Origin: a virus
Virus record (IMG/VR): IMGVR_UViG_3300047368_000172
Location: 1 to 32,567 of that record
Strand: one strand, 5' to 3'
Length of the DNA: 32,567 bases
The position numbers and the translations under genes are program-made. Below, piece after piece: positions 4,853-25,243 of this stretch (within the stretch, counting starts at the first letter, position 1; each line of letters starts with the position of its first letter). The notes beneath the pieces were generated by a model, which was not told where the DNA came from, did no database searches, and saw only the letters and a program-made list of their open reading frames with translations.

Positions 4853-5009
4853 AAGATTATATCGCAGACTATATAGACTAAAACAACGCAATACCCCGAT
4901 AACAAGAGATGAACGTAATAATCTTATAAATAGTATAGGATTATACAAACTTGTGTCTAATCGTTCTAAATCGGTTGACCGCATTATACAAGAGCTGTTA
5001 AATGGATAA
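4836..5009 (+). CDS. small basic hypothetical protein, 57 aa
   Basis: An ATG-started frame overlapping both neighbours: 17 bases of the preceding gene and 8 bases of the following one. The product is strongly basic (many Arg and Lys; SKRLYRRLYRLKQR near the start) and helical, so it may bind nucleic acid or be an assembly peptide. The late promoter for the next gene lies inside its coding sequence. No homologous family is recognised. Confidence 0.5.
   Translation: MDRISKRLYRRLYRLKQRNTPITRDERNNLINSIGLYKLVSNRSKSVDRIIQELLNG
4925..4932 (+). promoter_or_regulatory. T4-type late promoter box TATAAATA
   Basis: An exact TATAAATA within the cttataaatag context also seen at 863-872. It lies 69 bases upstream of the 957-aa virion polyprotein gene, inside the small basic ORF. 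A late transcript from here would have a leader of about 64 bases. Confidence 0.65.
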
Positions 5010-7875
5010 AAGTTTATCAGATTTTATTCCTTTAGAAGAAGGTGTAAATGACCCAGGTATCTTCAAGGCAGTATTCCTTGCGGGCGGACCTGGATCTGGT
5101 AAATCTTTTATGGTAGGACGCACCGCATTGCCTGCACTAGGCCTGAAAGTAATTAACTCAGATACAAATTTTGAAAATGCTTTGCGTAGAGCAAATATGG
5201 AACCTACTCCGGAAAATATTATGTCGGATGCAGGTCAGTCTATTCGCGCAAAAGCAAAGTATCTCACACAAAAGCAATTGAGCTTGGCAGTAATAGGCCG
5301 TCTTGGTTTGGTCATTGATGGCACAGGCAAAGATTACGATAAGATTGCAAGGCAAAAAGCAACTCTTGAAAACATCGGTTATGAATGTATGCTTCTGTTT
5401 GTAAACACTGATTTGGAAACAGCACAAGCAAGGAACCAAAAAAGACCGAGAACATTACCAGATAATATTGTCACCAGAATGTGGCAGGATGTTCAAAATA
5501 ATCTCGGTAAGTTTCAAAATGCTTTTGGTAATAATCTGCTTATTGTGGACAATAGCGAAGGTGTAAATGCAGAGGCGGCATCATTGTCTGCTTATAGAAA
5601 AATTACTGCTTGGGTATCAACACCTCCTCGTAGTTACATTGCACAACGTTGGATGAAAAAACAAAGGAATATGGCAATGCACGAATCCTTAAAAGACTGG
5701 TTTGGTAAAGGCAAAAAAGGTGATTGGGTTCGTGTAGGAACCGATGGTGAAATTAAAGGTGACTGTGCGAGAGACCCAGGTGAGGGTAAACCTAAGTGTA
5801 TGCCTCGCAGTAGAGCTCATAGTATGGACAAAGAGGATAGAGCAAAGTCTGCAAGACGTAAGCGGCGTAAGGATCCTGATGTAGATAGACCAGGAACAGG
5901 TAATAAGCCTATCAATGTAAAAACTGAGGCTATTGACAGACACGGTGTTTCCAAAGACGCAACAAAAGCAGAACTGAAAAAAATTAGATCCAATCCTAAA
6001 TCTAGTAAGGGTGCCAAGGATCTCGCACATTTTAAACTGAATATGCACCATAATGAAGAAAATATTGACGAAAAATGCTGGGACTCACATAAGCAGGTAG
6101 GCATGAAGAAAAAGGGCGGCAAGATGGTTCCTAATTGTGTGCCTAAAAACGAGGACCTCGAACCAATGCCTAAACTTTCTAAACTAAAACCTGCTAAATC
6201 TCCCGAGCAGAAAAAACTTATTAAGGGTAGAGAGAAAGATAAAGTTTTCTCTAGTATTGCTGTTGAACAAACAGAACTAGAAGAAATTTCGATGTCAGAT
6301 AGAGTCAAGGCTAAAACTCTTTACAAAGATAAGTATGCAAAACTAACTAGAGCAGTTATCTCTGATTACAGAAAAGATAAGCAAAGAACAGGCACAGCAA
6401 GGCATGGTGTTTATTACTATGCCGGTGAAGTTCTCCGCAAACTAGGGGGTCGCAGTCAACTGAATTCTAGAATACTTGGTGATATGGCCGCACAAAAGTT
6501 GGGTGAAGAATATAAGTATGAATGGGGAACACCTGAAGGCACACAATATATGAAAGCTGTTACACCAGGTGAGCCAGGCAAAACTACTAAGAAAAATAAA
6601 ACGAAATCCAAGAATCATTACAAAGCAGTAGATCAAATGACGGAAGATGTTGTAACAGAAGCAGTTGAATTGTTGGAGAAAAGTAAACCAACAAATCCAG
6701 GACTATGGAGCAGAGCAAAGTCTGCCGCAAGAGCAAAGTTTGATGTGTATCCTTCTGCTTATGCCAATGGTTGGGCTGTTCAATGGTATAAAAAACGAGG
6801 CGGCGGTTGGAGATCTGTAAAAGAAGGTGAAGAGCCAGAAGGCGATATCTTTGCAGAAATGTATAAGTCACCTGCACACAAAAAACTACAAGGGTTTATG
6901 AACAAAAATCGCAAATCTTTCGCATATCAAAATAAAGTAAGAAGCATGGGCGGAACTCCTTTGAAACCAGGCGAACAAAATAAAATGGTTTCCACAAAAG
7001 AAGCGACAGATGACGAGGAAAATTTTAAACCTCACATGATGTATGACCCTAAAACAGGCAAGGCTGTTAAGGCAAAGAAATATGCCGACCATATTGCATT
7101 GGGTAAAAAAGGTTATACACATGATAAGCCTGAAATGAAAGAAGAAAATGGTATTGAATGTCAGGACGGGCATTATTATTGTCGCCAACGTAAGGCATGT
7201 GTTCCAATACCAAAAGGTTATAGGGATCGCGGAGACGGATTTATTGTAAAAGAAGAAGTTGATGACGCAGAATATCTACAAAATCTTCATCAGATTGAAG
7301 TTCATGGGTTTTCAGATAATGAACTTAAAGCAATGGAACTTGAAGTTGATCAAATGACATTTGATGATTTTGTTGATCTCGGAATGTATGACGAAGAAGA
7401 ACTTGAAACTGTAGAAGCAGATGTTAGCGACTATGAGGGTGACATTAACGTAACAGAAGTATTGTCAATCCAAGGTAGAATGAAACGCCGCTTTACTGCA
7501 AGACGCAACAGACAAAAACTTAAGGTTGCTCGTATGCGTAGAGCTCGTATGGCATCAAGTCCTGATAGAATCAAACGCCGTGCCGCTCGAGGTGCTCGTA
7601 ACATGTTTAAGAAACGTCTTGCTCGAGGCAGAGATGTTGGTGCAATGCCGCCTGCAGAGAAGGCTCGTATTGAAACAATGTTGAAGCGTTTCCAACCAAT
7701 AGTTAGTAAACTTGCACAACGTATGATTCCCACAGTAAGACGTGCAGAAATTGGCAGACTAAAAAAACGTGGGGCAATGCAGTCTCAAAAAGCCAAGAAG
7801 TTTAAGATTTCTAAGGGCGGTTCTGCTTCCAAGTATAAGGCTAAGAAGTTTAAAATTAAAAAGGCTAAGAAGTGA
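5002..7875 (+). CDS. modular virion polyprotein: P-loop kinase plus basic DNA-binding tail
   Basis: 957 residues in modules. The N-terminus (KSLSDFIPLEE-G) resembles a T4 capsid-targeting peptide with a prohead-protease site (LEE-G). Residues about 20-205 form a P-loop kinase like polynucleotide kinase or zeta-type kinases: Walker A GGPGSGKS (28-35), VIDGTGKDY, and an arginine-rich lid. A DUF5872-like module follows (SLKDWFGKGKKGDWVR, about 229-300), then short modules common in marine phage head proteins: a CWDSHKQVGM Cys module (359-380), a KPTNPGLWSRAKSAARAKF module and a CQDGHYYCRQRKAC module. From about residue 816 it is extremely rich in Arg and Lys, ending in repeated AKKFKI. Acidic linkers with TE-A or VE-A steps separate modules, so processing into internal head proteins is likely but inferred. 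Confidence 0.7.
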   Translation: MDKSLSDFIPLEEGVNDPGIFKAVFLAGGPGSGKSFMVGRTALPALGLKVINSDTNFENALRRANMEPTPENIMSDAGQSIRAKAKYLTQKQLSLAVIGRLGLVIDGTGKDYDKIARQKATLENIGYECMLLFVNTDLETAQARNQKRPRTLPDNIVTRMWQDVQNNLGKFQNAFGNNLLIVDNSEGVNAEAASLSAYRKITAWVSTPPRSYIAQRWMKKQRNMAMHESLKDWFGKGKKGDWVRVGTDGEIKGDCARDPGEGKPKCMPRSRAHSMDKEDRAKSARRKRRKDPDVDRPGTGNKPINVKTEAIDRHGVSKDATKAELKKIRSNPKSSKGAKDLAHFKLNMHHNEENIDEKCWDSHKQVGMKKKGGKMVPNCVPKNEDLEPMPKLSKLKPAKSPEQKKLIKGREKDKVFSSIAVEQTELEEISMSDRVKAKTLYKDKYAKLTRAVISDYRKDKQRTGTARHGVYYYAGEVLRKLGGRSQLNSRILGDMAAQKLGEEYKYEWGTPEGTQYMKAVTPGEPGKTTKKNKTKSKNHYKAVDQMTEDVVTEAVELLEKSKPTNPGLWSRAKSAARAKFDVYPSAYANGWAVQWYKKRGGGWRSVKEGEEPEGDIFAEMYKSPAHKKLQGFMNKNRKSFAYQNKVRSMGGTPLKPGEQNKMVSTKEATDDEENFKPHMMYDPKTGKAVKAKKYADHIALGKKGYTHDKPEMKEENGIECQDGHYYCRQRKACVPIPKGYRDRGDGFIVKEEVDDAEYLQNLHQIEVHGFSDNELKAMELEVDQMTFDDFVDLGMYDEEELETVEADVSDYEGDINVTEVLSIQGRMKRRFTARRNRQKLKVARMRRARMASSPDRIKRRAARGARNMFKKRLARGRDVGAMPPAEKARIETMLKRFQPIVSKLAQRMIPTVRRAEIGRLKKRGAMQSQKAKKFKISKGGSASKYKAKKFKIKKAKK

Positions 7876-15026: not shown

Positions 15027-15676
15027 GCGATGTGAATCTAATTGCCCTAAGTAAACCATCGGCTGTTACAGATTGTAAAACTGCCGCTGAACTTATTGCA
15101 TACACAGCCCGTGTAAGTAACCCAGGCAATCAAAGTAATAAAACTACAGCACCTAAGTTGTTAAGGTATCTTATCAAAGAAAAACATTGGTCGCCATTTG
15201 AGATGGTTCATATGACTATGGAAATTAAAACAACTAGGGACATTGCCCGTCAAATTTTACGACACCGTTCCTTTTCTTTTCAGGAGTTTAGCCAACGTTA
15301 TGCTGAGCCTACTGAATGGAAATTAAAAGAAGCAAGACTGCAGGATCTAAAAAATCGTCAAAATTCTGTTGCTACAGATGACGAGGAGTTAAACGAACTA
15401 TGGGATCAAGTGCAGGAAAAACTTATCAAAAATGCTGAGGATGCCTACAGGTGGGCATTAGATCGAGGCATTGCTAAGGAGCAAGCTCGTGCGGTTTTGC
15501 CTGAAGGCAACACAGTTTCTGTATTATATATGTCAGGCACTTTACGTTCGTGGATTCATTATTGTGAATTGCGAGGTGGGCATGGCACACAACTTGAACA
15601 CATTGAAATCGCACAGAAGTGCTGGGAAATTATTGGTGTTCACTTCCCCGATATTGTAAAAGCATTGGAAGAATAA
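15023..15676 (+). CDS. thyX: FAD-dependent thymidylate synthase ThyX
   Basis: 217 residues. RHRSFSFQEFSQRY (80-93) is the full ThyX signature RHRxxSxxxxSxRY. ThyX makes dTMP from dUMP using methylene-THF and NADPH with flavin, and replaces the T4 td-type enzyme. ATG 15023 is chosen because GGAG lies 6 bases upstream and it overlaps the primase stop (ATGA). An earlier in-frame ATG at 15011 contains that GGAG and is probably not used. It is followed by TAATG coupling. Confidence 0.95.
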   Translation: MSDVNLIALSKPSAVTDCKTAAELIAYTARVSNPGNQSNKTTAPKLLRYLIKEKHWSPFEMVHMTMEIKTTRDIARQILRHRSFSFQEFSQRYAEPTEWKLKEARLQDLKNRQNSVATDDEELNELWDQVQEKLIKNAEDAYRWALDRGIAKEQARAVLPEGNTVSVLYMSGTLRSWIHYCELRGGHGTQLEHIEIAQKCWEIIGVHFPDIVKALEE

Positions 15677-16323
15677 TGGGTTTAGGATTCAACGATGGGT
15701 TTGCCCCCGAGGATTATTCCTTTCAAGAGCCGTTAACTAGGCTTACAGAACAGTTCTGGGATGTTGATGCTTTGCGGCGGGAAGCTCTTGAACAAAAACA
15801 AAGTGCCTATCTGTTTCCAACAAAGGCTGTTACAATTAGAGCAGTCCCACTATCAGATAGAACTCCTGAATTGACAAGGATGTTTAAAGAGTTTACTAAA
15901 AAGTATGGAGACAATTTTGGTTTGACTTCCTGTTCATATATGTATATTGATGCGGGTGAGGAATATCCTTATCATGTAGATAATGTTGTTGGACAAAAAG
16001 TAAGTGACCTTCCACCTGTTTTATGCACAATCAATATACTTGTTGAGGGTTCAGAAACAGCCGTAGAATTTAAAAATCTCGGCGAATATACATATAAGGC
16101 AGCTGTGTTTAACACGTCTGTTATGCACCGCATCACACCTAAAACTGATAGAATTATCGCACGGATTTCATTTAGAGAACTGTCCTTTGAAGACGTTGTC
16201 CAGAGAATAAAAGGTTACATAGAAATAGACCCAGATAAACGTGAATGGGAATATGCCGGTGACGGCACAAAAATATATAAATTAGAAGCTGGCAAACCAA
16301 CTCCAACAGAATACGAGAAGTAA
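15676..16323 (+). CDS. 2-oxoglutarate/Fe(II) dioxygenase-like protein (Asp/Asn hydroxylase type)
   Basis: 215 residues. The beta-helix iron site appears as H100 and D102 (YPYHVDN) and H151 (VMHRITP), with an Arg in DRIIARISF as the likely 2-oxoglutarate ligand. The fold matches aspartyl/asparaginyl beta-hydroxylase-like enzymes. The ATG overlaps the thyX stop (TAATG). The location between thyX and nrdA suggests a role in nucleotide or DNA-base chemistry, but protein hydroxylation is equally possible. It is a different protein from the broken dioxygenase at 8279-8809. Confidence 0.65.
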   Translation: MGLGFNDGFAPEDYSFQEPLTRLTEQFWDVDALRREALEQKQSAYLFPTKAVTIRAVPLSDRTPELTRMFKEFTKKYGDNFGLTSCSYMYIDAGEEYPYHVDNVVGQKVSDLPPVLCTINILVEGSETAVEFKNLGEYTYKAAVFNTSVMHRITPKTDRIIARISFRELSFEDVVQRIKGYIEIDPDKREWEYAGDGTKIYKLEAGKPTPTEYEK

Positions 16324-18123
16324 ATGGCAAAAAGAGAATATTTGGGTCTACAGATTGATGAATCGCGTGACGAGTTGTTTGATAAACTTGGCGTTCAAAG
16401 ATTACAAGAAAGCTACATGCGTGACGAGGAAACAACTCCTCAAGAAAGGTTTGCGTATGTAAGTAAAGCATTTGCTACTGATGATGAACATGCACAACGC
16501 CTTTATGAATATTCTTCTAAACATTGGTTGTCCTATTCTACACCCATTCTTTCATATGGCAGATCCAAACGCGGCATGCCTATCTCATGTTTCTTAAACT
16601 ACATTGAAGATACAGCCGACGGACTTGTGCAAAATTTTAGTGAGACTGCATGGTTGTCCATGCTTGGTGGCGGTGTAGGTATTGGCTTTGGTATTCGTTC
16701 TGCTGATGATAAATCTACAGGCGTTATGCCTCACTTAAAAACTTATGATGCATCTTCACTTGCATATCGTCAAGGTAAAACAAGGCGGGGAAGTTATGCC
16801 GCCTATCTTGATATCTCACATCCTGATATTCTGTTGTTCTTGGAAATGCGTAAGCCGACTGGTGACCAGAATATGAGAACCTTAAATTTACATCATGGTA
16901 TCAATATTAGTGACCGCTTCATGGAAATTGTTGAGCGTTGTATGCAAGACCCTGATGCTGATGATGGTTGGAATCTATGTGACCCACATAGTGGTGCAGT
17001 CCGTGAAACTGTATCTGCAAAGGCGTTGTGGCAAAAAATTCTTGAGTTGCGTATGGAAACAGGTGAACCTTATATCCATTACATTGACACAAGTAACCGC
17101 AACCTGCCAGAGTTTCAGAAAGAACTAGGACTAAAAATTCACCAGTCTAATCTTTGTTCTGAAATTATCCTCCCCACAAATGAAGAACGCACCGCAGTTT
17201 GTTGCCTGTCGTCTGTAAACTTGGAAAACTATGACGCTTGGTCAAGAGACCCATTGTTTCTGAAAGATGTAGCAGAAATGTTAGATAATGTTCTTCAATA
17301 TTTTATTGATAATGCACCCGATACTGTTGCCAGGGCTAAGTTTAGTGCCATCCGTGAACGGAGCATAGGTATCGGCGCCTTGGGTTTCCATGCCTATCTG
17401 CAAAAGAAAAATATTGCATGGGAAGGCGCTGTTGCAAAAGGAACAAACATGAGGATGTTCCGCTTAATTAGGAGTAAATTAGATGAAGCGAATATTCAGT
17501 TGGGCGAGAAACGAGGTGAAGCACCAGACGCTAAAGGAACAGGTAAAAGATTTAGCCATGTTATGGCTATTGCTCCTAACGCTTCCAGTAGCATTATTAT
17601 GGGAAACACTTCGCCTTCTATTGAACCTTTTAGAGCAAATGCCTATAGGCAAGATACTTTATCAGGAGCACACCTTAACAAAAATAAATACCTCGATCAA
17701 CTCATTATGGCAAAGTGTGAAGAAAACAATAAGTTGGATTATGACGAAATTTGGTCCTCAATCATAGCCAATGATGGTTCTGCACAACACTTGTCTTTTC
17801 TATCAGATGAGGAAAAAGATGTATTTAAAACGTCTATGGAAATTGACCAGCGTTGGTTAATTGAACATGCGGCAGATAGACAGAACTTTATTGACCAAGC
17901 ACAGTCACTAAACTTATTTTTCCGCCCTAATGTAAACATCAAATATCTTCATGCAATTCATTATCTTGCATGGAAACAAGGATTGAAAACACTTTATTAT
18001 TGCCGCTCTGAAAAACTTGGTAAGGCTGATAAAGTTTCTAAACGTATTGAAAGAGAAGTAATTAAAGAAATAGATATGCAGGCGTTGATTGATGATGAAA
18101 CTTGTATCGCATGTGAGGGATAG
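16324..18123 (+). CDS. nrdA: ribonucleoside-diphosphate reductase alpha subunit (class I)
   Basis: 599 residues, shorter than E. coli or T4 NrdA (about 750-760) and without an N-terminal ATP cone, so allosteric activity control by dATP is probably missing. Catalytic parts are present: C89 and C294 as the redox pair, NLCSE with N276, C278 (thiyl) and E280, the YY pair in LYYCRSEK, and a C-terminal CIAC (C594, C597) that takes electrons from glutaredoxin. It reduces NDPs to dNDPs with NrdB. It is separated from nrdB by about 5 kb of cassette genes. GAGAAG precedes the ATG. Confidence 0.93.
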   Translation: MAKREYLGLQIDESRDELFDKLGVQRLQESYMRDEETTPQERFAYVSKAFATDDEHAQRLYEYSSKHWLSYSTPILSYGRSKRGMPISCFLNYIEDTADGLVQNFSETAWLSMLGGGVGIGFGIRSADDKSTGVMPHLKTYDASSLAYRQGKTRRGSYAAYLDISHPDILLFLEMRKPTGDQNMRTLNLHHGINISDRFMEIVERCMQDPDADDGWNLCDPHSGAVRETVSAKALWQKILELRMETGEPYIHYIDTSNRNLPEFQKELGLKIHQSNLCSEIILPTNEERTAVCCLSSVNLENYDAWSRDPLFLKDVAEMLDNVLQYFIDNAPDTVARAKFSAIRERSIGIGALGFHAYLQKKNIAWEGAVAKGTNMRMFRLIRSKLDEANIQLGEKRGEAPDAKGTGKRFSHVMAIAPNASSSIIMGNTSPSIEPFRANAYRQDTLSGAHLNKNKYLDQLIMAKCEENNKLDYDEIWSSIIANDGSAQHLSFLSDEEKDVFKTSMEIDQRWLIEHAADRQNFIDQAQSLNLFFRPNVNIKYLHAIHYLAWKQGLKTLYYCRSEKLGKADKVSKRIEREVIKEIDMQALIDDETCIACEG

Positions 18124-18688
18124 CATACCACAAGGCAAACGTATAGGTGTTTGCGTATCAGGTGGTTGGGATAGTGCTGTTCTTTGGCATATTGTTTATG
18201 AAGAATGTAAGCGGCGGGGACAAAGTTGTCGCCCTTATACCGTCCCAAAGATAGATGGTGCAGTTAATTATGCTAACAAAGTTTTAGAGTGGTCGGGGTA
18301 TCCTGGGGTAACAAACGTTGTTGGTAATGTAACCGCACAGGATCCTTCAACGTATGTAACAAGTGGGATCTATGAAATTTTTAAAAAACAATATGCAGAT
18401 ATTGTTTATGTGGCTGTTACAAAATACTATGATGGTATGGAGCCGGAACATGAAAGGCAACATGCCAGTCAATACAATGCAGAAGACATTTGCCTTCAAC
18501 CGTTTAGTAATTTGACAAAAGATAAAACGGTGCAGATGGCTTTTGATTTAGGCATTGCAGAAGACATTATGCCTATCACACATAGTTGCACAGAACGTGA
18601 TGAAGGCAGATGTGGTTATTGTCCGTGGTGTAAGGAACGTAAGTGGGCATTTGAACAAGTAAATAAAATAGACATAGGAGCTCAATAA
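18092..18688 (+). CDS. QueC-like PP-loop protein (7-cyano-7-deazaguanine synthase family)
   Basis: 198 residues. SGGWDS (23-28) is the PP-loop that binds ATP. The C-terminus has C166, C174, C177, C180 (C-x7-CGYC-x2-C then KxR), the zinc site specific to QueC. QueC turns CDG into preQ0, used for queuosine tRNA and for deazaguanine DNA modification in some phages. No other preQ0 or dpd gene is seen in this window, so it may use host intermediates or have a different substrate. ATG 18092 overlaps nrdA by 32 bases; AGGCG lies upstream. A TAATG overlap couples it to the glutaredoxin. Confidence 0.6.
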   Translation: MMKLVSHVRDSIPQGKRIGVCVSGGWDSAVLWHIVYEECKRRGQSCRPYTVPKIDGAVNYANKVLEWSGYPGVTNVVGNVTAQDPSTYVTSGIYEIFKKQYADIVYVAVTKYYDGMEPEHERQHASQYNAEDICLQPFSNLTKDKTVQMAFDLGIAEDIMPITHSCTERDEGRCGYCPWCKERKWAFEQVNKIDIGAQ

Positions 18689-18891
18689 TGCAAGTCAAAA
18701 TTTATTCCAGAGACGATTGTAGATTTTGCAAAGATGCAAAAGACTTTTTAACAGGCATGGACATTGGTTTTGAGGAAGAAACACAGCCTACAGGTATGGT
18801 CCCTCAAATTTATGTTGATGACAAACACATTGGTGGTTATCAAGAATTGTTAGTCTGGGCAGTAGATTATGAGCATGACATTGCTTCTTAG
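18688..18891 (+). CDS. glutaredoxin
   Basis: 67 residues with the redox motif CRFC (residues 11-14), a cis-Pro region TGMVPQIYVDD, and GGYQEL near the C-terminus. These are the typical features of a small glutaredoxin or NrdH-like protein. It probably reduces the C-terminal cysteines of the NrdA encoded upstream. Overlaps both neighbours. Confidence 0.88.
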   Translation: MQVKIYSRDDCRFCKDAKDFLTGMDIGFEEETQPTGMVPQIYVDDKHIGGYQELLVWAVDYEHDIAS

Positions 18892-19627
18892 TGATAAAGA
18901 ACTAGAAACAAGATTACTACAAAAAGTTCCTAATTGGCGGACATACAAATTAAGTATTAAGACACATCGAGGAACTTTTAGTTTATCTTGGGATAGTGTT
19001 GAGGAACTAGCTTTCTACAGCATGTTTCAGATAGGACTAGGTAATGAGAGTGTTCCTTCTTTACAGCATTTTTATGATAATCATAGCCGTAAAAGGCAGG
19101 AGGAATGGTCTCGTAATGAAAACTTAGGTGCATATAATATACCTGAAAATGCAAACGTATTGGACATTGGTTCAGGTGTCGGTATCAATAGTTTGATATT
19201 AAGTTCTTATGCTCCCTCAGCAAAAATAACATTGTTAGATAAAAACAATGGCTGGAAAGATGTTGCCGGTTTGCCCCAAGATTATTTAAATGGTTATGAT
19301 GAAGATGGTTATGTTTTCTACAATGACACCAATCTAACAAAGGAGGCGATGGAAAACAGCAAAATAGAAAATGTAAAGTTTATTGTTCCCGAGGATGAAT
19401 GGGAACAATATGATTTAATTACTTCTACTTGGTCATATGCGTGGCATTATCCACTTGACATATACTGGGAAAAAGTGCTAAACTATTTGAAACCTGGGGG
19501 TATGTTGATGTTGGATATTTGGCATGACAAGGACATACAAAAAATTAGTGAAGCAATGAAATCAGAACCTGAGATGTCTATACATCCTGAGAGTGGATCT
19601 GAGAGGTGCTTATGGGTAAGGCAGTAA
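18869..19627 (+). CDS. SAM-dependent methyltransferase-like protein
   Basis: 252 residues. Motif I NVLDIGSGVGINSLIL (near residue 90-105) binds S-adenosylmethionine, TLLDKNNG gives the acidic loop at the end of strand 2, and LKPGGMLMLD is the post-motif strand. The target is not readable: it could be a sugar, protein or small molecule, and there is no DNA methylase NPPY or DPPY motif. It overlaps the glutaredoxin gene by 23 bases and the SDR gene by 16, so it is part of the nrdA-nrdB cassette. Confidence 0.7.
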   Translation: MSMTLLLSDKELETRLLQKVPNWRTYKLSIKTHRGTFSLSWDSVEELAFYSMFQIGLGNESVPSLQHFYDNHSRKRQEEWSRNENLGAYNIPENANVLDIGSGVGINSLILSSYAPSAKITLLDKNNGWKDVAGLPQDYLNGYDEDGYVFYNDTNLTKEAMENSKIENVKFIVPEDEWEQYDLITSTWSYAWHYPLDIYWEKVLNYLKPGGMLMLDIWHDKDIQKISEAMKSEPEMSIHPESGSERCLWVRQ

Positions 19628-20160
19628 TTGCAATTACAGGGCATTCTACAGGTATAGGTAAAGCCTGTTGGGACTTGTTACAGCATGACAATATTGTGCA
19701 AGGATTCAGCCGCAGTAATGGTTATGATATAGATGATACGGATAGGATTACTAAAGAAGCGAGGGATGCTACTGTATTCATTAATAATGCTTGGAGTGAA
19801 TTTGGTCAGATGCGGATGTTTGAAACAATGTTAAATTTATGGAGTAATGAGCCATCTAAAACTATTATAAATTTAGGTAGCAGATCTGCGTTTCTTAATC
19901 CATATGAAACACGCCGTCCAGAATATACAAGGAGCAAAAGACTTCTACTGAAAGACACCAGGCATTCTTCTTTACGCACAGATAAAAAATGTAGAGTCAG
20001 TATTGTGAATCCGGGTTTTGTAAAAACAAATATGTCAGCACATAATAAGGATGTTAATATGATGACACCCGAATATATTGCAGGAGTCATTAAATGGATT
20101 ATAGAACAACCTATAGACATTGAAATTGGTGAAATTGGAATCTGGACAAATACTCTATGA
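19612..20160 (+). CDS. short-chain dehydrogenase/reductase
   Basis: 182 residues. TGHSTGIG (9-16) is the NAD(P)-binding loop, INNAW (57-61) the NNA element, and YTRSK (Y105, K109) the catalytic YxxxK; a Ser in NLGSRS precedes it. It is shorter than usual (about 250) but keeps the active site. ATG 19612 has GAGG five bases upstream; an earlier GTG at 19606 is less likely. With the epimerase next door it suggests sugar or nucleotide-sugar chemistry. Confidence 0.8.
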   Translation: MGKAVIAITGHSTGIGKACWDLLQHDNIVQGFSRSNGYDIDDTDRITKEARDATVFINNAWSEFGQMRMFETMLNLWSNEPSKTIINLGSRSAFLNPYETRRPEYTRSKRLLLKDTRHSSLRTDKKCRVSIVNPGFVKTNMSAHNKDVNMMTPEYIAGVIKWIIEQPIDIEIGEIGIWTNTL

Positions 20161-21065
20161 ATATATTAATGACAGGATCTTCAGGATTTATTGGCACACA
20201 TTTAACGCCCTATCTTGAAAGTAGAAATCACGTATATCATCTTGAGAGCGACTTGCGAGACCATGATGATGTGAAACTTGAAGTGATAGAGTTCAACCCG
20301 GATATCATTGTGCATTTAGGTGCGCGAACAGAGGTTGAGCAAAGTTTCTATGAGCAAGTAGAATTTAGTGATATTAATTATACGGGGACAGTGAACTTAA
20401 TTGAGGCTGCCTCAACAATTAAGGATTTGAAAAATTTTGTTTTTGCCAGCACCATGGAAGTATATGGACATCAGCCTATCAGTGATGACGTTTTGCAAAA
20501 TATTCGTCCTAATAAATACATTGCATTTGACGAAAACACTATTCCTTACCCCAATGCACCCTATTCCGTTGCAAAGTTTGGGTGCGAAAAATACTTAGAA
20601 TATGCCGGTAGATGTTATGATTTACCTTACACTATCATAAGACAAACTAATTGTTATGGTAGAAAGGATAATAATTTTTTTGTCACTGAACAAATTATTA
20701 CTCAGATGTTGAAAGGCGATGAAGTTAATCTGGGTTACGCAGAACCTTACAGGAACTTTATATACATAGATGATATGCTTGAAGCGTGGACAACGATTGT
20801 AAACGCACCTAAAAAATGTAGGGGCAAACTGTTTACGCTAGGTCCCGATGAACCTATTAAGATTCGAGACTATGCGGATATGATAGCAGAAAAAATGAAT
20901 TGGTCCGGGACAATCAATTGGGATACGAAGCCAAAACGTCCAGGTGAAATTTATTGGTTAAACAGTAATGGAAAGTTGCTGAAAGAAACTACAGGATGGG
21001 AACCAAAGGTCAGTCTTTCTGATGGCCTAGATAGAACTATAGAGTTTTGGCGGAGTAATGTCTAA
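20157..21065 (+). CDS. NAD-dependent nucleotide-sugar epimerase/dehydratase
   Basis: 302 residues, an extended SDR. MTGSSGFIGTHL (5-16) binds NAD, S98 and T99 plus Y136/K140 (YSVAK) form the active site, and TNCYGRKDN, RNFIYIDDM and TTGWEPKVSL are typical of UDP-glucose 4-epimerase or GDP-mannose 4,6-dehydratase relatives. The exact sugar is not clear. It starts in an ATGA overlap with the SDR gene. Confidence 0.85.
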   Translation: MNILMTGSSGFIGTHLTPYLESRNHVYHLESDLRDHDDVKLEVIEFNPDIIVHLGARTEVEQSFYEQVEFSDINYTGTVNLIEAASTIKDLKNFVFASTMEVYGHQPISDDVLQNIRPNKYIAFDENTIPYPNAPYSVAKFGCEKYLEYAGRCYDLPYTIIRQTNCYGRKDNNFFVTEQIITQMLKGDEVNLGYAEPYRNFIYIDDMLEAWTTIVNAPKKCRGKLFTLGPDEPIKIRDYADMIAEKMNWSGTINWDTKPKRPGEIYWLNSNGKLLKETTGWEPKVSLSDGLDRTIEFWRSNV

Positions 21066-23184
21066 AAAGAATTTATATCTTTTTCAACCTCAATACACGA
21101 TGAATTTCCAGGGAACAACACAGAACTGGTTACCATATAGTGTTGGTTGTCTGTGGGCATACGCTATGCAACATGACTTTGTAACCGATAATTACAATCT
21201 TGATGGACTCTTTTTTGCTAGAGACAAACTTTCAGAAGTCATGGAAAAAATTAAAGACCCTGCTGTTGTGGGGTTTAGCACATATGTTTGGAACGAGCAA
21301 TACAATTTACATATGGCGCATGAGATTAAGAAAAAATATCCTGACTGTATAATTTTCTTCGGCGGCCCACAAGTAAACAGGCAGGACTTATTTGATTATC
21401 CTTGGATTGATATTGTAATGTTAAGTGAGGGTGAAAAACAATTTACACAACTACTTAAAGATATACATGAGGGTAAAGATCTACAAAATGTTTATGTCGG
21501 ACAACGTATCACAGATCTAAGTGAATTACCTAGCCCATTTACGACAGGTGTGTTTGATAAAATTATTGCAGACAATCCTCATATTCTATGGCAAACGCCC
21601 TTTGAAACTTCGAGAGGATGTCCTTTTTCCTGCACATTTTGCGATTGGGGTAGTTTAACATATTCCAAGGTCAAGCAGTTTGAGTTTGAAAGACTTGAAG
21701 CAGAAATACTATGGATTAAAAATAATCCTATTGCCTATATTTTTATGGCGGATGCTAACTTTGGTATATTTAAAAACAGAGATGTTGAACTAGCAAAAAT
21801 GTTTCATAAACATTTGGATGATAGTCGCTTAGATAAGATTAATATTCAATTTGCAAAAAATAGTAATGACCATGTAATACAAATTGGACAGGCATTAGGA
21901 AGACTAGGTAAGGGTATTACACTTAGCCAGCAGAGTATGAGTGAAACAACTCTTGAGGAAATTAAAAGAAAAAATATGGATATCAATAAACTTGGTGAGA
22001 TGTTAGAAAAAACTGAGGCAGCTAACCTTGATGCGTATAGTGAAATGATTATTGGATTGCCTGGAGAAACACTTGAATCCTGGAAGACCGGCATGGGTGA
22101 AATACTTGAAGCAGGGCAACATAACTGTGTAGAAGTTTGGTATGCACAAACACTAAAAAACAGTGAAATGTCGTCAGAGGAATCAAGAGAAAAATATGAC
22201 ATTAAGACTGTTCTAGTTAAGGACTATATCTTTTTGTATAATGATCCTGATGATATTCCTGAGTATGTAGAAGTTGTATGTGCTACAAAAGATATGTCTA
22301 CACCTGAAATGGTTGAGGCATACATGTATTCCTGGATGATAGTTAGATTTCATGTGTATGGTTATACATATGTATTGTCAAGATATGCAAGAAAAAAAGG
22401 TATTAGTTATCGAGAGTTCTATGATAAAGTCTTTGAAAAAATTAAAGAGACAAAACATATTGACGAACACTTCCAATCTATCAGAAGAAGTGTTTCTAAA
22501 TATCTTACTGAGGATCAAGCAGGTAAGGATGCAGGTAAAGGCTGGTTTAAATTGCGTAAGAATTTACCTGAACATAGACAGGAATCTGTTGCGGAGAAGG
22601 AAGAAGAAAGAGCCTTTATGTCACCTACATTAGAAGATCGTGCTAAGGGCAATTCCAACATAGCTCGTGCAAGAGCAGAGGGTAGATATGAAGAAGAAAA
22701 AAAGGAAAAAGACCCTCAAATTCTCACTGCCATGAATGAAGTTATTAAGCAAGATAAGTTAAAAAACAATAAAAAAGATAAGAAGGAAGAGGAATCTGAT
22801 GAAACAGTCATGGAAACAGAATCTGCACATTCTTGGCTTTATCAGAAAGAGACGGATTTTGTTGACCACAAACTAGAAATTTATGACATTGCTTGGAGAG
22901 CATTGTTGGAATTGCTTCCTGACACACATACGAGTATCATGGAAATGCAAAGGGCCTATATGTTTGATCCTAGCCACAACTATCCATTTACTGTCAGAGG
23001 CAAAATGGATTTTATTACATTTGAAGAAACACATGATATGAATGAATACAAAGTCGAATCTAATATGACTGCCGTTGGCGGGACATATGACAATAGACGA
23101 AACAGACACCCAGCAAAAAATACACTAATTAATTTAAAACAAACGGAGGACGCCCATGGCGAAGAAATTGAACTTACAGGATGA
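21058..23184 (+). CDS. radical SAM protein with B12-binding-like N-terminus
   Basis: 708 residues. Residues about 1-150 resemble a B12-binding fold (FFGGPQV, LSEGEKQF) but lack the usual DxHxxG base ligand, so cobalamin binding is doubtful. The radical SAM cluster is RGCPFSCTFCDWG (C188, C192, C195), with GxIxGLPGE-type sequence (IIGLPGETLESW). After about residue 480 it has a long Lys/Glu-rich, probably flexible linker, then a C-terminal domain (about 600-708) of unknown type. Similar proteins occur in marine T4-like phages without known function. It overlaps nrdB by 29 bases. Confidence 0.75.
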   Translation: MSKKNLYLFQPQYTMNFQGTTQNWLPYSVGCLWAYAMQHDFVTDNYNLDGLFFARDKLSEVMEKIKDPAVVGFSTYVWNEQYNLHMAHEIKKKYPDCIIFFGGPQVNRQDLFDYPWIDIVMLSEGEKQFTQLLKDIHEGKDLQNVYVGQRITDLSELPSPFTTGVFDKIIADNPHILWQTPFETSRGCPFSCTFCDWGSLTYSKVKQFEFERLEAEILWIKNNPIAYIFMADANFGIFKNRDVELAKMFHKHLDDSRLDKINIQFAKNSNDHVIQIGQALGRLGKGITLSQQSMSETTLEEIKRKNMDINKLGEMLEKTEAANLDAYSEMIIGLPGETLESWKTGMGEILEAGQHNCVEVWYAQTLKNSEMSSEESREKYDIKTVLVKDYIFLYNDPDDIPEYVEVVCATKDMSTPEMVEAYMYSWMIVRFHVYGYTYVLSRYARKKGISYREFYDKVFEKIKETKHIDEHFQSIRRSVSKYLTEDQAGKDAGKGWFKLRKNLPEHRQESVAEKEEERAFMSPTLEDRAKGNSNIARARAEGRYEEEKKEKDPQILTAMNEVIKQDKLKNNKKDKKEEESDETVMETESAHSWLYQKETDFVDHKLEIYDIAWRALLELLPDTHTSIMEMQRAYMFDPSHNYPFTVRGKMDFITFEETHDMNEYKVESNMTAVGGTYDNRRNRHPAKNTLINLKQTEDAHGEEIELTG

Positions 23185-24142
23185 ACGAGATTATTTCAAA
23201 CCTTTTAATTATCCTTGGGCGTATGAAGCATGGTTAAAACATGAACAGTCACATTGGCTACATACAGAAGTTCCTATGGCAGAAGATGTTAAGGACTGGA
23301 AAAATAAGTTGTCAAAGGCAGAACAAGCATTTTTAACAAACATCTTTCGTTTCTTTACGCAGGGTGATATTGATGTAGCAGGTGGTTATGTTACAAATTA
23401 TCTGCCTTACTTCCCACAACCGGAAGTTCGTATGATGCTGTCTGGATTTGCCGCTAGAGAGGCATTACATGTTGCCGCATATTCACATCTCATTGAAACA
23501 CTAGGCATGCCTGAAAGCACTTACAATGAGTTTTTAGAGTATCAAGCAATGGCAGATAAACACGAATACTTTATGGATTTGTCCAGTAAGAATGGGACTA
23601 AGGAATCAGTAGCCACAAACATCGCCGCCTTTTCTGCATTTACAGAAGGTATGCAATTGTTTTCATCCTTCATTATGTTGTTGAACTTCCCACGCCACGG
23701 TAAAATGAAAGGTATGGGTCAGATTGTAACCTGGTCTATTGTTGATGAAACAATGCACGCCGAAAGCATGATTAAACTATTCCGAACCTATGTAGAAGAA
23801 AACTTAGAGATTTGGAATGACGAACTTAAAAGTAATATCTATAACATTGCAGAAAAAATGGTAGAGCTTGAGGATAAGTTTATTGACCTTGCGTTTGCTA
23901 TGGGTGATATGGAAAACCTTACGCCCGAGGATGTAAAGAAATATATTCGTTACATTGCAGACAGACGCCTTATCAGTCTGGGTATGAAGGGTATCTTTAA
24001 GGTCAAAAAGAATCCATTGCTTTGGGTAGAAGAAATGATTAATGCACCTACACATACAAACTTCTTTGAAAACAGAGCAACGGACTATGCCCGTGGTGCA
24101 TTATCGGGTGACTGGCAAGATGTGTGGGGTTCAGCCGCCTAA
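23156..24142 (+). CDS. nrdB: ribonucleoside-diphosphate reductase beta subunit (class I)
   Basis: 328 residues. All metal ligands are found at expected spacing: D71, E102, H105, E164, E198 and H201 (VDETMH). Y109 in ALHVAAY aligns with the radical Tyr122 of E. coli, so it is a tyrosyl-radical enzyme. It supplies the radical to NrdA. A strong GGAGG precedes the ATG, inside the end of the radical SAM gene. The stop overlaps the next ATG (TAATG). Confidence 0.94.
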   Translation: MAKKLNLQDERDYFKPFNYPWAYEAWLKHEQSHWLHTEVPMAEDVKDWKNKLSKAEQAFLTNIFRFFTQGDIDVAGGYVTNYLPYFPQPEVRMMLSGFAAREALHVAAYSHLIETLGMPESTYNEFLEYQAMADKHEYFMDLSSKNGTKESVATNIAAFSAFTEGMQLFSSFIMLLNFPRHGKMKGMGQIVTWSIVDETMHAESMIKLFRTYVEENLEIWNDELKSNIYNIAEKMVELEDKFIDLAFAMGDMENLTPEDVKKYIRYIADRRLISLGMKGIFKVKKNPLLWVEEMINAPTHTNFFENRATDYARGALSGDWQDVWGSAA

Positions 24143-24300
24143 TGAAACCTAGGCTGGAGTGTATTTCCTGTGACGCAATGTTCAGTGTGCAACACGATAT
24201 GGACAACCATTATTATCGTGTTGCATACTGTCCTTTTTGTGGTAGTGAGATTGAACAGGAAGAAGAATTAGAGTTTGACGATATAGATGATGAACAATGA
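24142..24300 (+). CDS. small zinc-ribbon protein, 52 aa
   Basis: Residues C7-x2-C10 and C30-x2-C33 (CPFCGS) form a classic zinc ribbon, followed by an acidic tail (EEELEFDDIDDE). Such proteins bind nucleic acid or act as adaptors for polymerase or other proteins. It is coupled to nrdB by TAATG and overlaps the next gene. The specific role is unknown. Confidence 0.7.
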   Translation: MKPRLECISCDAMFSVQHDMDNHYYRVAYCPFCGSEIEQEEELEFDDIDDEQ

Positions 24301-25243
24301 GAAATATTGTGTAGCACCCTTTGCTTCTTTAGAAATGCACACTAATGGAGAAGACAGTCTTTGTTGCCCCTCACACAATAACCACCCTAAACTTTCAGGA
24401 AACACTATATCAGAAAGATTTAGTAGCCCCGAAGCACATCTTGTGCGGCAAACAATATTGGATGGCACCTACAAATACTGTAAGGATGCCTGTCCCTTTC
24501 TAGTATCATATAGAAAATCAGGAGAGCCCAATGAACTGTTTAGGGATAGAAAAATATTGGATACTATTGTAAACAATACAGATCCTATACACATTGTATC
24601 TGCAGAAGATAGAACATGTAATTTAGCATGTCCTTCTTGTCGAAAAGACTTTGTTCTCACCTCCGAAAATGACAGGGATATTGAAAAAGAAATTAAAGAA
24701 GTTTCACAAGGATTGAGAAGATTCACAACGTCTGGTTCCGGTGACCCGCTTTACAATAAAAGAACACTTAACTTTCTAAAAAACATAAAACAGGAGGATT
24801 ATCCTAATTTAGAAGTAGTTGAAATATGGACAAATGGTATTCTCCTAAACGAAGAAACCTATGACTCTATCAAGCACTTGCCTTTAGAAATACAAATTTC
24901 CATTGATGCCGCATATGAGGAAACATATAACATAGTTAGACGAGGCGGTGCTTGGAATGTTCTTATGCGTAATCTACAATTTCTTAACACATCAGACCTC
25001 AAATCTATTCTCTTGTCCTGTCTTGTGCAGAAGCAAAATGAAAATGAAATTGTAGACTTCTATAGACTAATGGAACGTATTTTTACAAATACTGAAACAA
25101 AATACTATTTCTTTACAATAGAAAATTGGCATATGTCAGATGACACATACAAAGAACATTTGCCGAACCCTATTGCATTAGAAAGAATTAAACAAGAGTT
25201 GTCTGAACACATTGTAAGTGGGAAAATAACGTGTAATTTATAG
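24287..25243 (+). CDS. radical SAM protein, SPASM/twitch-like
   Basis: 318 residues. C111, C115, C118 (CNLACPSC) are the radical SAM cluster ligands. SGSGDPL resembles the second SAM motif region and VEIWTNGILL the later strand. An N-terminal Cys set (YCVAPF, LCCPSH, CKDAC) may bind an extra Fe-S cluster, unusual because SPASM domains are normally C-terminal. Substrates of this family are mostly peptides, sugars or nucleosides; none can be named here. Start is ATG 24287 or 24290 without a clear ribosome binding site, overlapping the zinc-ribbon gene. Confidence 0.7.
   Translation: MMNNEKYCVAPFASLEMHTNGEDSLCCPSHNNHPKLSGNTISERFSSPEAHLVRQTILDGTYKYCKDACPFLVSYRKSGEPNELFRDRKILDTIVNNTDPIHIVSAEDRTCNLACPSCRKDFVLTSENDRDIEKEIKEVSQGLRRFTTSGSGDPLYNKRTLNFLKNIKQEDYPNLEVVEIWTNGILLNEETYDSIKHLPLEIQISIDAAYEETYNIVRRGGAWNVLMRNLQFLNTSDLKSILLSCLVQKQNENEIVDFYRLMERIFTNTETKYYFFTIENWHMSDDTYKEHLPNPIALERIKQELSEHIVSGKITCNL

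Follow-up and report, generated by a model that had tools for sequence, protein, structure and literature searches.

The genes between nrdA and nrdB

In the virus record IMGVR_UViG_3300047368_000172 of IMG/VR, whose positions 1 to 32,567 were analyzed (this whole stretch is called the window below), six plus-strand genes, each overlapping its neighbours, separate nrdA from nrdB, which encode the large and small subunits of ribonucleotide reductase (RNR). The 32.6 kb record carries T4-like genes (T4 RNase H, ThyX, and RNR), and no near match to the window DNA was found among phage isolates. A sequence-only reading had named the six as QueC-like, glutaredoxin, methyltransferase, short-chain dehydrogenase/reductase (SDR), epimerase, and radical S-adenosylmethionine (SAM) genes, and the open reading frames agree with Pfam and NCBIfam matches on this list.

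The upstream border is nrdA (16324..18123), a class I large subunit of 599 aa (Pfam PF02867, 1.2e-104) whose C-terminus bears a CxxC redox tail, CIACEG. It is overlapped by the gene for a QueC-like PP-loop ATPase (ATG at 18092, with an alternative TTG at 18089, to 18688), which matches PF06508 (3.6e-9) only in the last quarter of the model. Next come a glutaredoxin gene (18688..18891; PF00462, 2e-8) with the active site CRFC and a gene for a class I SAM-dependent methyltransferase, here called family a (18869..19627; Methyltransf_23, 8e-7). A short SDR of 182-184 aa (ATG at 19612, with an alternative GTG at 19606, to 20160; adh_short, 5e-7) has both GxxxGIG and YxxxK, and is followed by an extended-SDR nucleotide-sugar epimerase/4,6-dehydratase (20157..21065; PF01370, 2.4e-36), whose best NCBIfam match is a LegB-type model (1.4e-34, under its cut-off). 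The last gene (21058..23184; Radical_SAM, 2e-10) encodes a B12-binding radical SAM enzyme that belongs to the KedN5-like C-methyltransferase superfamily and ends in a variable C-terminal extension; its B12-binding Pfam match lies under the cut-off and its closest NCBIfam family is NF033712, the KedN5 B12 radical SAM C-methyltransferase (1.3e-51). It runs into nrdB (23156..24142; PF00268, 8.9e-77), and all these genes are on the plus strand.

The same gene order recurs in independent contigs, with 100% identity in L001, 84-99% in L004, and 55-91% in L005, from which the SDR gene is missing, and purifying selection acts on each of the six (dN/dS 0.05-0.26, window versus L004); the cassette is therefore neither a chance arrangement nor an assembly artefact. 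Synonymous divergence from L004 is uneven (0.34 for the QueC-like gene, 0.36 for the methyltransferase, 0.03 for the SDR, 0.10 for the epimerase, 0.34 for the B12 radical SAM gene, and 0.11 for nrdB), which suggests recombination within the cassette. The SDR was seen only in the clade that unites the window with L001 and L004. The GC fraction of the accessory genes is 0.355-0.376, as against 0.396-0.404 for nrdA, nrdB, and the QueC-like gene. Judged by position, the cassette probably shares a transcript with RNR, something that alone is no proof of a single pathway; promoter and terminator scans gave results at chance level.

The nrdA-nrdB interval in relatives

Loci from QueC-like and nrdB searches were clustered at 95% DNA identity, and the resulting 85 nrdB lineages (83 marine lineages and 2 isolates) were compared. 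The nrdA-nrdB interval ranges from close to zero up to 5,035 bp, its median being 658 bp; the longest of all is that of the window. The supposition that nrdA and nrdB are usually adjacent or nearly so fails in this clade, since they nearly abut in just 10 of the 83 marine lineages. In relatives the interval holds 2-oxoglutarate (2OG) oxygenases, IscU/IscA, thioredoxin, fatty-acid desaturase, nitroreductase, 2-hydroxyacid dehydrogenase, nuclease, or an N-acetylglucosamine-type glycosyltransferase, and in the isolates Melnitz and HTVC019P one small gene. The iron-sulfur assembly genes IscU/IscA occupy it in L207, L225, L231, and L233; marine phages bearing IscU, one of them assigned to SAR86, offer a comparison (PMC5332604).

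Such variety invites the explanation that the interval is merely a hotspot of mobile elements with random cargo. In T4 the intergenic region of nrdA and nrdB is occupied by the homing endonuclease gene mobE (PMC2988022), at the same genomic place and with similarly overlapping gene borders, and an HNH gene lies in the interval of L012; the diversity of the cargo and the mosaic synonymous divergence within the cassette fit as well. However, the cargo of the window is metabolic, no homing endonuclease gene was found in its cassette (the HNH gene was seen only in L012), and the QueC-like gene, under purifying selection, has been passed down through 40 lineages with few changes, so that random cargo is a rather unlikely account of the whole interval.

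The inheritance of the QueC-like gene is apparent from several comparisons. It lies 3' of nrdA in 57 of 57 loci (directly in 53 and after one gene in 4), and every contig that extends far enough has nrdB further downstream; of the 83 marine lineages, 40 carry the QueC-like gene between the two RNR genes. Its presence requires 4 changes on the nrdA+nrdB tree of the 85 lineages compared with 28 when labels are shuffled, a contrast to be read with the fact that this is a quick tree in which near relatives make any label cluster. The identity of QueC-like proteins to that of the window also tracks nrdA identity (Spearman 0.83). Glutaredoxin is the next gene in 23 of the 40 lineages, and a glutaredoxin or thioredoxin takes the same position in many relatives; both the CxxC motif and the place between nrdA and nrdB are as expected of an RNR-linked glutaredoxin. 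By a label scan that left other inserts uncounted, the QueC-like gene stands with or without glutaredoxin alone in 35 lineages, with a methyltransferase added in 3 (L012, L026, and L032, which have neither epimerase nor radical SAM gene), and with methyltransferase, epimerase, and B12 radical SAM genes in 2. Relatives of the QueC-like protein were absent from the phage isolate records searched.

Epimerase, B12 radical SAM enzyme, and methyltransferase

The epimerase and B12 radical SAM genes occur in the interval in just two lineages, those of the window and L005, and are also found together away from nrd genes in other phages. The interval copies of the B12 radical SAM gene group together in a single clade with a support of 100, whose sister is L072; the branches at this join are long, which leaves the sister relation less sure than the single clade. 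Most members of the wider group have a relative of the epimerase no more than 5 kb away, often along with a DegT/DnrJ aminotransferase gene and other sugar-type genes. A second large branch of the family sits in the T4-like head module: in many contigs (L080-L144), twin B12 radical SAM genes on the opposite strand separate the gene for the portal (gp20) from that for the prohead protease (gp21), usually accompanied by a gene that looks by eye like a glycosyltransferase and has no Pfam hit.

Both products of the pair retain the hallmarks of their families. The window enzyme resembles B12 radical SAM C-methyltransferases of the KedN5 and GenK type in its B12-binding plus radical SAM layout and its CxxxCxxC motif, whose residues C188, C192, and C195 are invariant; it differs in scoring well below the family cut-offs (175.6 bits against 700 for KedN5), in being paired with a sugar dehydratase/epimerase, and in its long variable C-terminal part. 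Likewise, the epimerase shares with the NAD-dependent nucleotide-sugar 4,6-dehydratases LegB and RmlB the GxxGxxG and YxxxK motifs (conserved in alignment A4) and the Glu of the STMEVYG segment, whereas the Asp of the TDE motif is replaced by Met, and its scores fall below the LegB, RmlB, and GalE equivalog cut-offs (119.5 bits against 475 for the LegB type). GenK provides a precedent for radical SAM C-methylation of a sugar (PMC4039129), and by analogy the window pair would yield a C-methylated sugar.

In its position the methyltransferase is recurrent, and in its identity it is exchangeable. Among the ten lineages of the window's clade that carry both QueC-like and glutaredoxin genes and have an insert after the glutaredoxin, a class I methyltransferase is present in 10 of 10, a pattern small in number but striking. 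These enzymes belong to three sequence-unrelated families: family a in the window, L005, L012, L026, and L032, and families b and c in L019/L021/L025 and L018/L038. A fold search with the window protein, based on a moderate model (pLDDT, the predicted local distance difference test, of 75), returned only generic class I enzymes (VIA Z 14.5).

The sequence-only reading had suggested that the enzymes may form a single pathway to a modified nucleotide or sugar, perhaps for DNA modification or a surface glycan; in the nucleotide version, all six would together make a modified nucleotide for phage DNA alongside the supply of dNTPs. That all the genes overlap inside an RNR operon, that QueC, radical SAM, and methyltransferase classes are known from base-modification routes, that methyltransferases recur after glutaredoxin, and that lineages lacking the QueC-like gene carry, in their own nrdA-nrdB interval, 2OG oxygenases with a weak match to Oxygenase-NA would all suit such a pathway. 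The neighbourhood comparison, on the other hand, finds the genes apart, the very outcome named in advance as contrary to the idea. A single pathway is not supported, because the QueC-like gene with or without glutaredoxin lacks the other genes in most of its 40 lineages, the methyltransferase is present in three lineages that have neither epimerase nor radical SAM gene, and the epimerase with the B12 radical SAM gene is found away from nrd in other phages. The epimerase moreover points to sugars, and the genes and motifs of the deazaguanine route are lacking, as described below; we consider one pathway very unlikely.

The reading that we favour, and hold to be probable with some reserve, is instead that the interval is a tolerant slot filled in layers. 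The old layer, inherited with RNR, would comprise the glutaredoxin and the QueC-superfamily PP-loop ATPase. Motif and position suggest that the glutaredoxin re-reduces the C-terminal cysteines of NrdA, and the family of the ATPase suggests that it adenylates a carboxylate with ATP and then amidates or conjugates it with nitrogen or another nucleophile. A later and lineage-specific layer would consist of the exchangeable methyltransferase, the portable epimerase and B12 radical SAM pair, and the SDR, with the methyltransferase and SDR presumably tailoring a product; from the families and their neighbourhoods elsewhere, this product is most likely a methylated deoxysugar destined for a glycan of the surface.

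Several observations weigh against this reading. The recurrence of methyltransferases from three unrelated families after glutaredoxin could mean that methyltransferase and QueC-like enzyme cooperate across the proposed layers. The epimerase, methyltransferase, and B12 radical SAM enzyme score under every NCBIfam family cut-off, and their exact reactions are therefore left unassigned. Within the window no gene was identified as a glycosyltransferase, and the case for a glycan as end-use therefore depends on other phages. A hairpin resembling a terminator lies inside the methyltransferase gene (19381-19410), and such hits come near chance level.

Two neighbouring gaps vary too. A second variable slot, 3' of nrdB, holds in the window a plus-strand gene for a twitch-type radical SAM protein (24287..25243; NCBIfam NF033640, 1.7e-21, under its cut-off), which shares just 42% identity with the corresponding gene of L004 (6248-7108) between flanks of about 93-100% identity, and is best read as an allelic replacement. 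The third, between thyX and nrdA, differs in content among relatives; in the window it encodes on the plus strand a possible 2OG-oxygenase-like protein (15673..16320), recognized by eye from HxD...H, for which a Pfam search gave no match. Elsewhere in the window (5002-7875) lies the gene of a 957-aa protein with an AAA_33/zeta-toxin-like kinase domain and a weak DUF5872 match.

The QueC-like protein and its possible substrate

QueC itself is 7-cyano-7-deazaguanine synthase (PF06508, TIGR00364), and the window protein shares with it the overall fold, the SGGxDS phosphate loop (S24-G-G-W-D-S29, with the S, G, and D positions invariant in alignment A6), the PFxxxTK region, and the four-cysteine zinc site (C167(x)7C175xxC178xxC181, all four Cys invariant and one residue shorter than the C(x)8CxxCxxC of QueC). 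It reaches 29.6 bits against the TIGR00364 cut-off of 150.3. According to a survey of PF06508, canonical QueC conserves, and partly needs, the motifs YxQxHxxE, VPxRN, and YPDC (PMC13329287). All three are absent from the QueC-like proteins of alignment A6, in which Tyr113 is mostly kept while the Asp and Cys are not. This Asp reads the deazaguanine edge in both Cap9 and QueC (PMC13279940). Since the recognition motifs have been lost, the substrate is probably something other than 7-deazaguanine.

The pathway partners are missing as well, and the gene sits in an RNR operon. Neither FolE nor QueD was found in any of 18 records bearing a QueC-like gene, mostly fragments with the largest at 138.7 kb, whereas the positive control L007 has both. 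The model for tRNA-guanine transglycosylase (TGT), PF01702, was unmatched in 19 records, a model that a divergent DpdA may escape. Most of these records being fragments, the absences are evidence rather than proof. With FolE, QueD, a TGT match, and the substrate motifs all missing, a deazaguanine modification of the DNA is not supported and was set aside as an explanation; of the two end-uses proposed from the sequence alone, the surface glycan is the likelier, in keeping with the sugar-directed role supported for the epimerase and B12 radical SAM pair. In another phage, L007 (5967-6662 and 11465-12349), FolE and a QueE-like gene recognized by eye lie near a B12 radical SAM/epimerase cluster, with QueD elsewhere in the record, which makes it a candidate for a true deazaguanine pathway.

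The QueC-fold enzymes Cap9 and QatC have recently been shown to act in anti-phage defence. An AlphaFold2 model of the QueC-like protein (pLDDT 90.9) matched Cap9 of the type IV cyclic-oligonucleotide-based antiphage signalling system best (9nto; VIA Z 15.5, 2.6 A, 159 aligned residues), slightly above QueC (14.3) and LarE (12.9), and both proteins are small (~185-200 aa). This match and the strict linkage to nrdA and nrdB would accord with conjugation to a protein in the fashion of Cap9, for example as counter-defence or as modification of an RNR subunit. Such a role is nevertheless unlikely: the Z value of Cap9 is close to those of QueC and LarE, the Asp and Cys of the Y(x)DC/D117 motif, by which Cap9 recognizes deazaguanine, are not conserved (PMC13279940), and Pfam scans of 30 window proteins, part of its open reading frames, gave no match to the partner of Cap9, a cGAS/DncV-like nucleotidyltransferase (CD-NTase). 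The QueC-like gene is, besides, a phage gene.

A further explanation draws on radical SAM neighbours. A short-pattern genome scan found two bacterial relatives of the QueC-like protein, and a profile search in the phylum of the Bdellovibrionia genome added five further genomes. In L157, L247 (three copies), and L250, distant relatives with 22-26% identity have twitch/SPASM radical SAM genes around them, and enzymes akin to the twitch-type protein 3' of nrdB in the window adjoin QueC-like genes in bacteria. In L157 and L248, relatives of the B12 radical SAM enzyme (29-32% identity to the window gene) share the region with the QueC-like relative, and in L157 they adjoin genes that resemble, by eye, sulfate-activation and sulfotransferase genes. 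A similar neighbourhood occurs in L158 (PAAV01000055.1, titled a Chloroflexi metagenome-assembled genome), where a dense, one-strand contig start carries three radical SAM genes, a QueC-like gene, and an amidinotransferase-like gene; this contig looks phage-like and may be misbinned. Among phages, L058 (7045-9671) has the order nrdA, SPASM/twitch radical SAM gene, two tandem QueC-like genes, and nrdB.

From these neighbourhoods it may be proposed that the QueC-like and radical SAM enzymes act together on a small molecule or peptide with a QueE/QueC-like logic, the radical SAM enzyme making a carboxylate and the PP-loop enzyme amidating it, and that the place in the RNR operon is historical. 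Among phages, 17 of 37 lineages with the QueC-like gene have a twitch/SPASM radical SAM gene within 9 kb, versus 2 of 23 lineages that lack the QueC-like gene (Fisher p 0.004), yet the tree holds just two independent pairs. Several contigs of 33-50 kb with the QueC-like gene have no twitch radical SAM match, though they are fragments. We regard this proposal as possible, if somewhat doubtful. A phage-wide link between QueC-like and twitch radical SAM genes is not claimed, the independent pairs being too few, and is kept as a lead. As a separate observation, seven twitch-type radical SAM genes lie nearly in tandem in the L051 record (G002, 71518-82658), a 91 kb T4-like contig.

That marine T4-like phages are rich in radical SAM genes has already been reported (PMC5332604; PMC7029224). 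The RNR-linked QueC-like branch, by contrast, is undescribed in the literature searched: among open-licence full texts, none was found to describe a QueC-like gene between phage nrdA and nrdB, and the excerpted parts of the PF06508 survey neither mention this group nor place it among the published clusters (PMC13329287). Tentatively, and with more doubt than assurance, we suggest that within the QueC superfamily it forms a functional branch of its own and a new one, whose members, encoded in the RNR operon of uncultivated marine T4-like phages, would activate and amidate or conjugate a non-deazaguanine substrate, work with radical SAM enzymes, and have distant kin in predatory bacteria. With the nrdA-nrdB gap of this marine T4-like clade now mapped as an insertion slot, inherited genes can be separated from cargo; passed down together with RNR through 40 lineages, the phage QueC relative would mark a reaction so far undescribed in ocean viruses.

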